From NCBI GenBank assembly GCA_003249025.1, contig QBMH01000004.1, positions 1-64,000 on the forward strand: 64,000 nt of DNA, written 5' to 3'. Origin of the DNA: Leptolyngbya sp. (GTDB lineage: Bacteria; Cyanobacteriota; Cyanobacteriia; Leptolyngbyales; Leptolyngbyaceae). The translations under genes were made by a program, and so were the position numbers. This document shows positions 24,776 through 29,546 of the stretch, piece after piece. Under the pieces are notes generated by a model. It was given only the letters and a program-made list of their open reading frames with translations, was not told the origin of the DNA and did no database searches. Numbering within the stretch: the first letter of the stretch is position 1; each line of letters starts with the position of its first letter.

Positions 24776-24806
24776 TTCTATAGGTTCCTTTCCCGTTGGG
24801 ATAGGC

Positions 24807-25157
24807 TTAGGGCGAAGTTGGCGGCACTTTGGGTGGAAAGGTACACTTCACAGAAATCTCCAGGTTGCTTTCGGCGGAGCCTTCGGTGATGTAAGGAACT
24901 CCCGCTTTGCCGCCCAGTTTCACGCCAAACTTGAGGTTAACTTCCTGCACTTCCGCTGCGCCAAAGTTGCAAAAGGCACTGACTGCTTGGATCGCACAGG
25001 TTCGGATCATCAGGCGAGTCCGATCCATCTGAGAGATCGTGTCCTCCACGAGTCCATACCGTTCATATTCATCGGATTGAGGGGCTATTTTTGAGGTGAC
25101 AGTTATTTGCTGTACCTGTCCATCCACCTCAAAGGCTAGATATTCTTCGTTTTCCAT
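24807..25157 (-). CDS. Trypco1-like (trypsin-co-occurring domain) small protein
   Basis: 116 aa; C-terminal EVNLKFGVKLGGKAGVPYITEGSAESNLEISVKC resembles the Trypco1 core (VEFGLKLS.EAG..I....E..F.V.L.W). Confidence 0.7.
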   Translation of the reverse strand: MENEEYLAFEVDGQVQQITVTSKIAPQSDEYERYGLVEDTISQMDRTRLMIRTCAIQAVSAFCNFGAAEVQEVNLKFGVKLGGKAGVPYITEGSAESNLEISVKCTFPPKVPPTSP

Positions 25158-25294
25158 AAATTCCTTGTGTCCGGCGATCGCAGAATCAGCTTCATTATTA
25201 CGGAAATTAGAAAAGTTTCATTAATTTTCTTGGCGTACGGAAAAAGCCTGTGCCTGAATGAGGTTAATCCTAACCTTATCGTCGCTTCTACCCA

Positions 25295-28200
25295 ATGGCT
25301 CAGCGCTACGCTCTTGTAATTGGCATCTCCACCTATCATCGCTCCGTAGGAAACCTGACTAAACCTGCCACAGATGCTCAAGCGGTTGCTCGATGCTTGC
25401 AGCATCACGGTGGTTTTGAAGTCACGCTACTCACCGAAACGCTGACCCTGGAAGCCCTGCGGCAAGCGCTGAAGCGGTTTTTGCTAGAACAGGCAAACGG
25501 CAACGATGCGCTGATTTATTTCACGGGGCACGGCATTTTGTTGGAAAGCACCACCGGATATCGAGAAACCTTTCTGGCAGCTTCCGACACTGAAATTATT
25601 CGGCAAGCTGGCAAGCCAATGGAGCCGCTGTACATCTTGCCCTTTGGCGAACTGAACAGCCTGATTCAGCAATCTAACCTCAGCAGTTTGGTGTTGCTGC
25701 TGGATTGTTGTCACAGTGGCGATATGCTGGAGCGCGACCCGGTGGAACGGGCGCTGACCGCGTTCAATTCGACGCAGCGCAACTATTGCTTCATTACCGC
25801 TTGCCGCAGTTTTGAGGAATCCCGTGCTAAACGCAGCGACCAGCACAGCCTGTTTACGGGGGCGCTGCTGGAAGCTCTGGCTGCTCCGACTCGTCCCGAA
25901 GATGGGTCAACCATCACCAGTGGACTCCTGTTCTATCGCCTCTCCCAAAGTCTGAAAGGATCGGGACAGGAAGCGCTGCATTTGGGTTGGGGCAATGATA
26001 TCGCGATCGCCATTCACCCCGCAGTCAAAACCGCCGATACTGAACCTGCTCTAAATTTGGTGAATCCCTACATCGGTCTGGCATCTTTTGATAGCGCCAC
26101 CGCTCACTATTTTTATGGACGGGAAGAAGCAGTCCGGGCATTGCAGGCGCGGTTGCTAAATTGCCGAGTGCTGACGGTGTTTGGTCCCTCCGGCTGCGGT
26201 AAATCTTCCTTGATCAAAGCGGGTTTGTTGCCAGAACTGCGCAATCGCCCATTTGAAAGTGCCGCCTGGGAAGTGGAGATGCTGACTCCAACGGCGCAAC
26301 CTCTACAAGTTTTGGGCGATCGCCTGACTCATCGCTCCCAATCCACTACACCGTTTGTCTTGTTCATTGACCAGTTTGAGGAGTTGTTTACGCTCTGTGC
26401 AGAGGACGCGGAACATCGCCAGTTTATTCAATTGATGACTACGGCGATCGCGGCGATGCCCCATCTCAAGCGCGTCGTTATTGCCATTCGCGGCGACTTT
26501 TTGGATAACTGCGCCAGAATTCCCGAATCTGCCACGCTGATCAACCGTGAAAGTGAATTGACGACCTACATGGTGACTCACCTGTGTGCCAGCGAAATGG
26601 TGAGCGCCATTGAGCGCCCCGCTGCCCAGCATGGCGTAGCCTTTGAACGGGGACTGGTGCCGCAAATTATTGCCGATGTGGGCGACGAACCCGGTGCCCT
26701 GCCGTTGTTGCAATATGCCCTGACCCAACTCTGGCAAGTATGCATCCAATCAAGAGCCTCTGAAGGGCTAACCTTTGAGGGCTACCAGCAAATTGGCGGT
26801 GTGCAGGGCGCACTCCAGCAACGAGCCGATCAGCTTTACAGTAGCTTTCATCCTGATGATCAAGCCTTTGTGCGGCAACTGATGATGGAATTGGTGCAGC
26901 TGGGCGCTGGGCAAGAAGTGACTCGCCGTAAAGCAAGCTGGGAAAAGCTCAGGGCGATCGCGCACTATACCCAACTGCTCCGTGTGGTCGAGCGCCTGAC
27001 CCATGAACGGCTGATTGTCACGGATGAAAAAACCGTTGAAGTTGCCCACGAAGCCCTGCTACGCGAATGGACACTGCTGAAAAACTGGATTGAAGACAAC
27101 CGCGAAACCATTCGCCTCAGCCGCCGACTAGAAGCTGATTGCCACGACTGGCAGGAAAAAGAGAGATCGCAGGATTTTCTCCTATCCGCAGGTCGCCTTG
27201 CCGCAATTCAAGAATGGGTGGCAAAAGAACAACCAAAACTGACCCACACTGAAACCGAGTTTTTGAATCAAAGTATTGAGAAACGCGATCGCGAACTGCA
27301 AGCCCAAGTAACCCAAGAACGCAGGTTGAGAGAAGAGGCAGAGGGAAGAGCGATCGCGGAGATCGAAAAGAAAATCGAAGCTGAAGCCCGTGCCCTAGCG
27401 GAAACAGAGAGAGCCAAAGAATTCGGTGCAAGAGCGAAAGCAGAAAGGCAAAAGACCCGGACTGCCATTGGTGCAGGTGCTCTAGTAGCTGTGCTAATCA
27501 CCTCTCTAGGTTTTTTGAAAGTTCAATCAACGAAACAACAAGAACAAATTGCAAGAGCAGGTGAAATAAAATCCCTTGTTGGCTTATCCGAAACATACTA
27601 CAGTACCCACACCCAACTAGAAGCATTAATAGCAAGCGTAAGAACACTATGGAAATTGAGGAATTTTGATGGAAATGATAACGAAACGCTAAAAAGAATC
27701 AATCGAGTTATTAGCGGAATTCATGAAAGAAATCGTTTTGAAGATCATAGCGCTGCTATTTTTGCTGTCGATTTTAGCCCAAAAGGATCTTTTATTGCAT
27801 CTGCAGGAGATGACAAGTTAATAAGAATTTGGAAACCTGACGGCACCCTGATCAAAACAGTTAGTCCAATGCGGCATGAGAAGACAATTTGGACAGTAAA
27901 TTTTAGTTCAAGTGGTGAGTTTATTGCCTCTGGTGACCAGAATGGAATTATAAAGATTTCGAGAAAAGATGGAACTCTACTTGATGTTTTTAAAGGACAT
28001 ACAAGTGACGTAAACTTTGTCTCCTTCAGTCCAGACGAAAAAAGTATCATATCTGCAAGTGATGATAAGACAGTTAAAGTATGGGCATTTGATCTTAGTT
28101 CCAAAAGAGTACTAAAGAAATCACCATTGATTCTTCAACACAACAGTCCTGTTTGGATGACAACATTTAGTCCAAATGGTCATTTAATTGCCTCAGCAAT

Positions 28201-28771
28201 TGATAAACGAGCAATAAATATTTGGCGATCAGACGGTACATTCCTTACGACGCTTATTGGACATACAGCTTCCGTAAGATATGCAAGTTTTAGTTCTGAT
28301 AGTAGAGCTTTAGTATCTGCTAGTGATGACAACACTATAAGAATCTGGCAATGGCAAAAAGACCCGAAGCACTGGATCAGTAAAATTCTGACAGACAAGA
28401 GTAATAAAGGATATACAGTTAGATATAGTCCTGATAATCGAACTATTGCTGCTACAAGTGCCAATGGCACAATTCAACTCTGGCGCTCTAAAGATCTGTC
28501 TCAACTTATACCTTTTGGACGACATTTGGATCGAGTTTTGGATCTAGCATTTAGTCCTGATAGTAAGCAAATCGTTACTGTTAGTCGAGATAAAACAGTA
28601 AGGATCTGGAATCTAGATTCTGTTAATAGTGAAAGTCAAATTAGTGTCGATCATTTACTAGTAAAAAGTTGCTCTTGGCTCTCCGATTATTTGAGAACAA
28701 ACTCAGCAGTGAAACATAACTATAGCGATATTATTACAATTTGTAATGACGTAAAAGTGATTTCTAAGTAG
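25295..28771 (+). CDS. Caspase (peptidase C14)-nSTAND ATPase-TM-WD40 repeat protein
   Basis: Caspase dyad YFTGHG and LLLDCCHSGD; Walker A GPSGCGKSSLIKAGLLP, Walker B FVLFIDQFEELF, AIRGDFLD; TM AIGAGALVAVLITSLGFL; about 7 WD40 repeats. Confidence 0.93.
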   Translation: MAQRYALVIGISTYHRSVGNLTKPATDAQAVARCLQHHGGFEVTLLTETLTLEALRQALKRFLLEQANGNDALIYFTGHGILLESTTGYRETFLAASDTEIIRQAGKPMEPLYILPFGELNSLIQQSNLSSLVLLLDCCHSGDMLERDPVERALTAFNSTQRNYCFITACRSFEESRAKRSDQHSLFTGALLEALAAPTRPEDGSTITSGLLFYRLSQSLKGSGQEALHLGWGNDIAIAIHPAVKTADTEPALNLVNPYIGLASFDSATAHYFYGREEAVRALQARLLNCRVLTVFGPSGCGKSSLIKAGLLPELRNRPFESAAWEVEMLTPTAQPLQVLGDRLTHRSQSTTPFVLFIDQFEELFTLCAEDAEHRQFIQLMTTAIAAMPHLKRVVIAIRGDFLDNCARIPESATLINRESELTTYMVTHLCASEMVSAIERPAAQHGVAFERGLVPQIIADVGDEPGALPLLQYALTQLWQVCIQSRASEGLTFEGYQQIGGVQGALQQRADQLYSSFHPDDQAFVRQLMMELVQLGAGQEVTRRKASWEKLRAIAHYTQLLRVVERLTHERLIVTDEKTVEVAHEALLREWTLLKNWIEDNRETIRLSRRLEADCHDWQEKERSQDFLLSAGRLAAIQEWVAKEQPKLTHTETEFLNQSIEKRDRELQAQVTQERRLREEAEGRAIAEIEKKIEAEARALAETERAKEFGARAKAERQKTRTAIGAGALVAVLITSLGFLKVQSTKQQEQIARAGEIKSLVGLSETYYSTHTQLEALIASVRTLWKLRNFDGNDNETLKRINRVISGIHERNRFEDHSAAIFAVDFSPKGSFIASAGDDKLIRIWKPDGTLIKTVSPMRHEKTIWTVNFSSSGEFIASGDQNGIIKISRKDGTLLDVFKGHTSDVNFVSFSPDEKSIISASDDKTVKVWAFDLSSKRVLKKSPLILQHNSPVWMTTFSPNGHLIASAIDKRAINIWRSDGTFLTTLIGHTASVRYASFSSDSRALVSASDDNTIRIWQWQKDPKHWISKILTDKSNKGYTVRYSPDNRTIAATSANGTIQLWRSKDLSQLIPFGRHLDRVLDLAFSPDSKQIVTVSRDKTVRIWNLDSVNSESQISVDHLLVKSCSWLSDYLRTNSAVKHNYSDIITICNDVKVISK

Positions 28772-28809
28772 TAATATAATTGATTGGAAGTCATAGATTG
28801 GAAGCCATA

Positions 28810-28842
28810 AGACCTAGAGATTTAAGGTCTAGATATTTTTTT
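28810..28842 (+). terminator. Candidate intrinsic terminator/attenuator after the caspase-STAND gene
   Basis: agacct-agagattta-aggtct stem followed by agatATTTTTTT. Confidence 0.5.
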
Positions 28843-28853
28843 AGGAAGTTTTT

Positions 28854-29183
28854 ATGAACAACGTTGAGCTGTCACTAGAAATACTCAAAATAGTCGCCTC
28901 TGATCCTAATTTTCAGAAGATCTCTGATGATGAAAAGATTAATCAGGGGATTCAAGAGTACAAGAAAATTTATCAAAGTCTCTCTCAAACAAATCCTGCC
29001 GGCAACGATGGCGGAGGAGGAAACGGTGGTCATAAATCTCGTAGAGTAGCAGTGGCAATTTTGCAAATCGTTAATACTAGTACTGATATAAACGTAGATA
29101 ATTTGGATTCTAGTGGAAAAACAGATAATTTATTGAAACAACTTGAGCAAATTTCTACAAAGCTTTCCGATACCAGCTTTTAG
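28854..29183 (+). CDS. Hypothetical protein, 109 aa, Gly/Asn-rich centre
   Basis: ATG; NPAGNDGGGGNGGHKSRRVAVAILQ; same AT-rich composition as the WD40 region. Confidence 0.5.
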   Translation: MNNVELSLEILKIVASDPNFQKISDDEKINQGIQEYKKIYQSLSQTNPAGNDGGGGNGGHKSRRVAVAILQIVNTSTDINVDNLDSSGKTDNLLKQLEQISTKLSDTSF

Positions 29184-29330
29184 TCAGAAAATAAAGTCTA
29201 GGTTACTGGGATAGCAATAATAGAGGCGTAGCTTATGGATTCTCTTCCATCGCTAGTGCGTTTAAGCTTTATAAAGCTGCATCTACTCCCTTAGTGCCGT
29301 CACGATATTAGTCAAATACTTCGACGAGGG

Positions 29331-29450
29331 ATCGCATTTTCAAGTTCAAATGTTAGGCGATCGTGTGAATGAATCGGAAGGGCGATCGCATTTTTGGGTT
29401 TAGATGTTGGGCGATTTTGGGAATGAATTGAAGATGCGATCGCATTCTTT
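29331..29450. repeat. 54-bp-period degenerate tandem repeat carrying HIP1-like ends
   Basis: 'atcgca' landmarks at 29331, 29385 and 29439, exactly 54 bp apart, with similar intervening sequence. Confidence 0.75.
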
Positions 29451-29546
29451 GGCACAGGCATGGTTGCAAGTCCCTCGCACTGATTCAACCAGCAAGTTGC
29501 TTCAATGCCTAAATTCCGGCACAATCGGGAAGATCAATCTCCATAA

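Follow-up and report, generated by a model that had tools for sequence, protein, structure and literature searches.

What does a protein domain known as a companion of trypsin do beside a caspase? The Trypco1 domain is named for trypsin and, in the passages of Kaur et al. 2020 (PMC7159879) that treat it, is the trypsin partner in VMAP (MoxR-vWA) ternary conflict systems. In the 64,000-nucleotide stretch of Leptolyngbya sp. DNA analyzed here (contig QBMH01000004.1, positions 1 to 64,000; hereafter, the window), a Trypco1 gene stands head-to-head with a gene for a large caspase–nSTAND1–transmembrane–WD40 protein, which is followed by a small open reading frame (ORF). This Trypco1–caspase pair is a widely conserved cyanobacterial module, and we consider it somewhat probable that its two, sometimes three, genes form a conflict or cell-death system.

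The divergent pair and its proteins

The Trypco1-domain protein (116 amino acids, aa; 24,807..25,157, minus strand) matches Pfam PF19493 with an e-value of 5.6e-15 (56.2 bits against a cut-off of 24.6) and is also named as a member of the CU044_2847 family by NCBIfam NF041216 (1.5e-18, 67 bits against a cut-off of 23). Its AlphaFold2 model has a beta-beta-alpha-beta-beta topology at low confidence (pLDDT 63, pTM 0.39), and a fold search of the PDB with this model returned nothing below an E of 1, so that no function is claimed from the fold. No relatives encoded by phage records or viral contigs were found, which leaves a phage-borne or counter-defense origin of this gene without support.

A divergent intergenic region of 137 bp (25,158..25,294) separates its start codon from that of the caspase–STAND–WD40 gene (25,295..28,771, plus strand; 1158 aa; all its domains are thus given on the plus strand). 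The caspase domain (residues 1–240, 25,295..26,014) matches Peptidase_C14 over residues 4–200 (72.4 bits against a cut-off of 21.4, 6e-20), and its His79/Cys139 dyad is invariant in all 64 aligned partner caspase domains. It is followed by an nSTAND1 NTPase (residues 258–626, 26,066..27,172; 372.9 bits, 3.6e-111) with the P-loop GPSGCGKSS, in which Gly297, Ser299, Gly300, Gly302, Lys303 and Ser304 are invariant across 25 aligned proteins, then by a long helix or coiled-coil-like linker in the AlphaFold2 secondary structure (residues 651–711, 27,245..27,427), and by the only transmembrane-like segment of the protein (residues 723–741, 27,461..27,517; mean Kyte-Doolittle hydropathy 2.06). The WD40 region, the variable sensor, spans residues about 811–1110 (27,725..28,624); it matches the Pfam WD40 profile at 180.5 bits, with six repeats passing on their own, and is modeled as a propeller at residues 811–1106, for which the best PDB matches are seven-bladed (TMt 0.94). 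A conserved C-terminal helical tail closes the protein (28,646..28,765), with cysteine columns at Cys1126 and Cys1150 that are invariant or nearly invariant. The full-length model (pLDDT 79.5) consists of a caspase-region fold, an NTPase-region fold, the long helix and the propeller, and is uncertain at residues 703–744, the stretch that holds the transmembrane segment.

These results bear out the domain calls of the original prediction, which had been made from the DNA alone and had named a Trypco1-like protein, an intact caspase dyad, a P-loop STAND ATPase, a single transmembrane helix and WD40 repeats. The ORF positions, the 137-bp gap and the place it gave for Cys codon 139 (25,709, the second Cys of DCCHSG) are likewise correct. 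That prediction was to fall if the 116-aa protein failed to match Trypco1 by profile search and the genes were not neighbors in related genomes; the match is given above, and the linkage proved genuine, as follows.

The nearest relatives of the window Trypco1 were sought in GTDB with one genome per species, yielding 80 loci from filamentous and unicellular cyanobacteria, in 74 of which the Trypco1 ORF was recovered by the ORF caller. A divergent caspase gene, usually caspase–nSTAND1, lies upstream of Trypco1 in 66 of these 74 loci; the query set was somewhat biased to caspase-linked copies, although cobD-linked copies and two without a divergent caspase were also included. In an evenly drawn sample of 292 genomes of the phylum, a profile search detected 30 loci, of which 20 have a head-to-head caspase, almost all of the strongest matches among them. 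Five plasmid records, three of them conjugative, carry six pairs, all head-to-head; of their partners, the five that were scanned are caspase–nSTAND1 proteins that differ in their C-termini, and the remaining one bears the annotation of a short caspase family protein. By our own estimate, adjacency by chance would amount to well under 1% per locus, since a genome of several thousand genes holds a handful of caspase genes, and the head-to-head pairing is far beyond chance. Intergenic spacings of 64, 79, 145–147 and 165 bp recur, and the class of 120–150 bp holds 28 loci, that of the window included; no operator motif common to the intergenic regions of distant members was found.

In the one same-genus genome compared (G041, 85% complete), the module is absent: blastn homology ends at 24,777 and restarts at 29,497 on two different contigs, so that a segment of the window (24,778..29,496) is missing there and synteny is broken at both edges. 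The flanks of this segment lie far apart in complete genomes of the family, such as G012 and G016.

Inheritance of Trypco1, the sensor and the small ORF

With which part of the large protein does Trypco1 go? When partners lacking WD40 were scanned with Pfam, a caspase domain was present in every case, with a middle part that could be nSTAND1, NB-ARC, nSTAND5 or nothing recognizable; the C-terminus of the partners varies among WD40, pentapeptide, FGE-sulfatase, CHASE2, guanylate cyclase and TPR domains. Because the middle and the C-terminus vary while the caspase stays, Trypco1 goes with the caspase and not with the sensor. The distances point in the same direction, with a Trypco1–caspase correlation (r) of 0.87 and a partial correlation of 0.69 given nSTAND, against 0.38 for Trypco1–nSTAND given the caspase, the bootstrap intervals not overlapping. 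Furthermore, seven genomes carry two modules, and the two Trypco1 proteins of one genome are about 50% identical; in six of the seven, both Trypco1 and the caspase have much closer matches in the corresponding modules of other species. Judged from these comparisons, Trypco1 is co-inherited with the caspase domain rather than with the STAND or WD40 part.

The sensor behaves differently. Among 33 pairs of loci with caspase parts at least 85% identical, the median identities are 92% for Trypco1, 94% for the caspase, 92% for nSTAND and 40% for WD40. This WD40 divergence is pronounced in the membrane-type group; a soluble group with longer WD40 regions shows less of it (about 70% identity). Loci L068 and L069 present the opposite pattern, the WD40 parts of the two being identical and their caspases 91% identical, which points to recombination. 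The window itself appears as a mosaic: G+C content at third codon positions (GC3) is 0.57–0.59 in the caspase and nSTAND parts, 0.23–0.30 from the transmembrane helix onward to the C-terminus, and 0.32 for the downstream ORF, compared with 0.50 ± 0.05 in the 24 other coding sequences of the window. This break near the transmembrane helix coincides with the identity boundary between relatives, delimiting an AT-rich sensor cassette (27,461..29,183, plus strand; GC3 0.23–0.32) that comprises the transmembrane helix, WD40 region, tail and downstream ORF. From alignment identities and composition alike, the sensor end is swapped between strains on a caspase end that stays constant. The STAND domain, too, has apparently been swapped internally in one case, L081 being 54–55% identical to L085, L088 and L090 in nSTAND, 88–91% in the caspase and 69–75% in WD40.

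The downstream ORF of the window encodes a 109-aa protein (28,854..29,183, plus strand) with no match to any family in the Pfam, NCBIfam or PADLOC libraries. Proteins matching its first 46 residues (MNNVELSLEILKIV…EKINQGIQEYKKIYQSL) are encoded at five other loci (L057, L063, L070, L080 and L082), each time immediately after a caspase gene of the window kind, and no other clear matches were found among about 18,000 stop-to-stop frames scanned. Since these relatives hold the same position, the ORF is very probably a real gene. A helical motif of about 40 aa occurs twice in the protein, with an internal repeat score reached by none of 2000 shuffles. The 109-aa protein alone as query found no relative in 291 other genomes of the phylum, and weak matches of the motif profile elsewhere, mostly in small-genome lineages outside the class, were treated as chance. 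The family is a fast-evolving one, found only directly downstream of such caspase genes. In Microcoleus/Tychonema-type loci, with caspases 91–99% identical, the small ORF is common to two loci when the WD40 is, and otherwise unrelated; because of this covariation among close relatives, we assign the 109-aa ORF to the sensor cassette. Taken over all pairs, small-ORF similarity shows a weak rank correlation (0.17) with WD40 identity because most pairs are unrelated, and the assignment rests on the close-relative comparison. The ORF is accessory, given that many loci, most of those from Nostoc included, have no ORF of at least 60 aa at this position. A role as caspase substrate, suggested by basic residues in a Gly-rich linker, was set aside because the ORF co-varies with the sensor. 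The original prediction had offered substrate, adaptor or regulator for both small proteins; of this, the substrate role is not favored for the 109-aa protein, and Trypco1 is now tied to the caspase domain. Other loci carry different small ORFs downstream. Those of L062 and L095 begin like the 109-aa family (MENLEAN.., MMDNLKAN..) and then run into short repeats (EPGPSHT, GSHDPSPKG), and in L083, L089 and L090 the caspase gene, that of a soluble WD40 partner, is followed by frames of short tandem repeats (e.g., LRTRNFV, EAQLSAF).

On which side of the membrane would the propeller lie? In 23 of 26 membrane-type WD40 partners, including that of the window, the 15 residues preceding the transmembrane segment carry more positive charge than the 15 that follow. 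Exactly two cysteines follow the helix in 15 of the 24 complete membrane-type WD40 partners; in the window protein these are Cys1126 and Cys1150, both in the C-terminal tail. The charge bias and the paired tail cysteines favor a cytoplasmic caspase/STAND end and a propeller outside the cytoplasm, a position proposed earlier for the WD40 domain of such cyanobacterial orthocaspases in the relevant passages of PMC7475262. The original prediction had the WD40 propeller sensing an invader or stress signal; a propeller outside the cytoplasm would respond to a signal from beyond the cytoplasm and not to an invader within the cell.

Relation to known systems

A census of PF19493 in 42 genomes of the family revealed three main settings of Trypco1: divergent from a caspase–STAND gene, beside cobD/cbiB, and co-directional upstream of large proteins. 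The three large proteins of the last setting that were scanned (L163, L187 and L189) combine Trypsin_2 with either a STAND-type or an AAA domain, and Trypco1 is the upstream gene, with gaps of -4 to 61 bp. These loci have the same constant partner and the same peptidase–STAND–sensor layout as the window, with Trypsin_2 in place of Peptidase_C14 and with a short gap or overlap in place of divergent transcription. Either trypsin or a caspase can thus occupy the peptidase slot of a peptidase–STAND–sensor protein, and Trypco1 accompanies both. Several other loci were recorded in the course of the census. The cobD/cbiB-linked subgroup, found in many family genomes (G000:C129:7624-8154 (L052), L041, L044, L046, L048, L049, L053, L177 and L184), has no recognized peptidase alongside and looks vertically inherited. 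In L036 (5470-8814), a 1114-aa protein joins a caspase to a complete serpin domain at its C-terminus and so combines protease and protease inhibitor in a single chain; its gene is convergent with a Trypco1 gene. A separate long caspase protein (about 1600–1790 aa) is present in about one copy per genome in most family genomes (G000:C321:19707-20411).

The window shares with the VMAP ternary systems a Trypco1 gene that neighbors the gene of a peptidase-bearing protein, the setting of an NTP-dependent conflict system and the occurrence in multicellular prokaryotes; it differs in that its peptidase is a caspase and the genes are divergent. Pfam scans of the main neighboring proteins (16.6–36.0 kb) detected no MoxR, vWA, alpha/beta-hydrolase or trypsin, so the module is neither a VMAP ternary system, in which MoxR AAA+ and vWA genes adjoin a VMAP gene, nor its caspase variant, in which an alpha/beta-hydrolase stands beside the caspase, nor a Trypco1–trypsin pairing, the partner here being Peptidase_C14. 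The EACC1–caspase two-gene systems (Kaur et al. 2020, System 4) share a small constant partner, a constant N-terminal caspase with a variable C-terminus, and membrane association. EACC1, however, is a single-transmembrane, mainly actinobacterial protein, whereas the partner in the window is cyanobacterial, divergently encoded and has Trypco1 as its sole Pfam match, and the window caspase scores 95 bits with the NCBIfam 'caspase, EACC1-associated type' model, below the cut-off of 140. The large protein's architecture is already known from cyanobacterial orthocaspases with NACHT/AAA_16 and WD40 (PMC7475262, PMC8283722, PMC2853523), including the transmembrane helix and the proposed outside WD40; the pertinent passages of two of these papers mention no partner gene, Trypco1 or sensor swapping. 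Apaf-1 of the apoptosome, which is among the fold matches of the model, likewise has a STAND ATPase and a WD40 propeller controlling a caspase, but in the window the caspase sits on the same polypeptide; the long alignment superposes poorly (TM 0.26, rmsd 20), and the similarity shown is thus only local.

In the published passages concerned, Trypco–trypsin and caspase pairings are mutually exclusive, and a 2024 paper places Trypco1/2 near trypsin- or caspase-like effectors at DGR (diversity-generating retroelement) loci. The two-gene Trypco1–caspase arrangement is not described in the two papers found to name Trypco1, although it may be listed in supplementary files. With a Trypco1 domain, a Peptidase_C14 domain with its dyad and an nSTAND1 domain with its P-loop, the window module belongs to an already known type of conflict system, as a variant in which Trypco1 is paired with a caspase; this pairing is the unusual part.

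Proposed working, rival explanations and meaning

In the proposed module, the constant core is Trypco1 and the caspase domain at the N-terminus of the large protein, whose head-to-head genes share a short intergenic region; the caspase is fused to a STAND ATPase switch and an interchangeable sensor. In the window, the sensor would be a WD40 propeller held outside the cytoplasm on one transmembrane helix, and the caspase and ATPase would be cytoplasmic. Binding of a ligand to the propeller would trigger ATP-dependent oligomerization of STAND, bringing the caspase domains together and activating them as in an apoptosome, and the active caspase would cleave host or partner proteins, leading to cell death or shutdown. 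Trypco1 would be a dedicated partner on the caspase side, most likely an inhibitor or chaperone that restrains the caspase, otherwise an adaptor or substrate, and the 109-aa protein, as part of the sensor cassette, would probably tune or match the sensor.

Several observations weigh against a conflict or cell-death module. The window neighbors are housekeeping genes, not a defense island; PADLOC gives generic caspase and repeat matches only, nothing for Trypco1, and no known anti-phage system was matched; and the divergent orientation may mean that the two genes are controlled separately and not jointly. Nor does Trypco1 always accompany a peptidase: one conserved group adjoins cobD/cbiB, and the family relative nearest to the window Trypco1 (G016, 73%) faces, without a caspase, a gene for a membrane HEAT-NACHT-NCH4 protein (L034:5747-8841), possibly a partner swap. 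Passages in PMC7889975 link cyanobacterial orthocaspases to stress responses as well. The cobD and HEAT-NACHT neighbors would also suit adjacency as a by-product of the abundance of both families in large cyanobacterial genomes, the genes not working together, which we regard as barely credible, since it is contradicted by the 66 of 74 head-to-head loci, the recurrent spacings, and co-inheritance through paralogous modules and in plasmids. A signaling or stress-response protease is a more serious, though still unlikely, alternative: the outside WD40 would sense an environmental or developmental cue and the caspase would cut a regulator in a limited manner, with Trypco1 as substrate or regulator. 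Passages in PMC7475262 propose cyanobacterial orthocaspases with an outside WD40 as receptors of growth or death factors, CHASE2 or cyclase signaling domains occur in some partners, and the housekeeping neighborhood would fit; however, rapid replacement of the sensor on a constant effector, patchy presence (absence from G041) and plasmid carriage fit an arms race better.

The inheritance of WD40 and small ORF as one polymorphic cassette, shared as a whole by L068/L069 and by L070/L082, brings up kin or self-recognition (allorecognition) in filamentous cyanobacteria, in which each strain's WD40 sensor would fit the small protein encoded downstream of it, and a misfit would lead to caspase death. 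Relatives with 92–98% identical caspases and other sensors carry unrelated small ORFs, and the predicted outside position of WD40 would agree with such a role. Yet the small ORF is missing from many loci, no signal peptide is evident in the small proteins (none was specifically sought), so that their meeting with an outside propeller lacks an explanation, and the sensor could equally track phages; we judge allorecognition improbable. A further proposal, doubtful but a shade less so, is an undescribed recognition system in which transmembrane–WD40 and matched small protein would be exchanged between strains as a polymorphic cassette on a constant Trypco1–caspase–STAND death engine, the small protein being a self ligand or an inhibitor of its own sensor, with non-self or kin recognition ending in caspase death.

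We retain the conflict or cell-death module as the preferred reading, and infer a role in defense; the constant caspase end and the swapped sensor suggest an apoptosome-like immune receptor. The conserved divergent pair shows that Trypco1 works with two peptidase folds that are unrelated and both fused to STAND switches; most likely, therefore, its action is on the activation of the peptidase itself. The module offers an apoptosome-like protein on one chain, together with a natural sensor-exchange experiment in which the caspase is constant and the WD40 is replaced, so that both the ligands of WD40 receptors in bacteria and the task of Trypco1 become directly testable.

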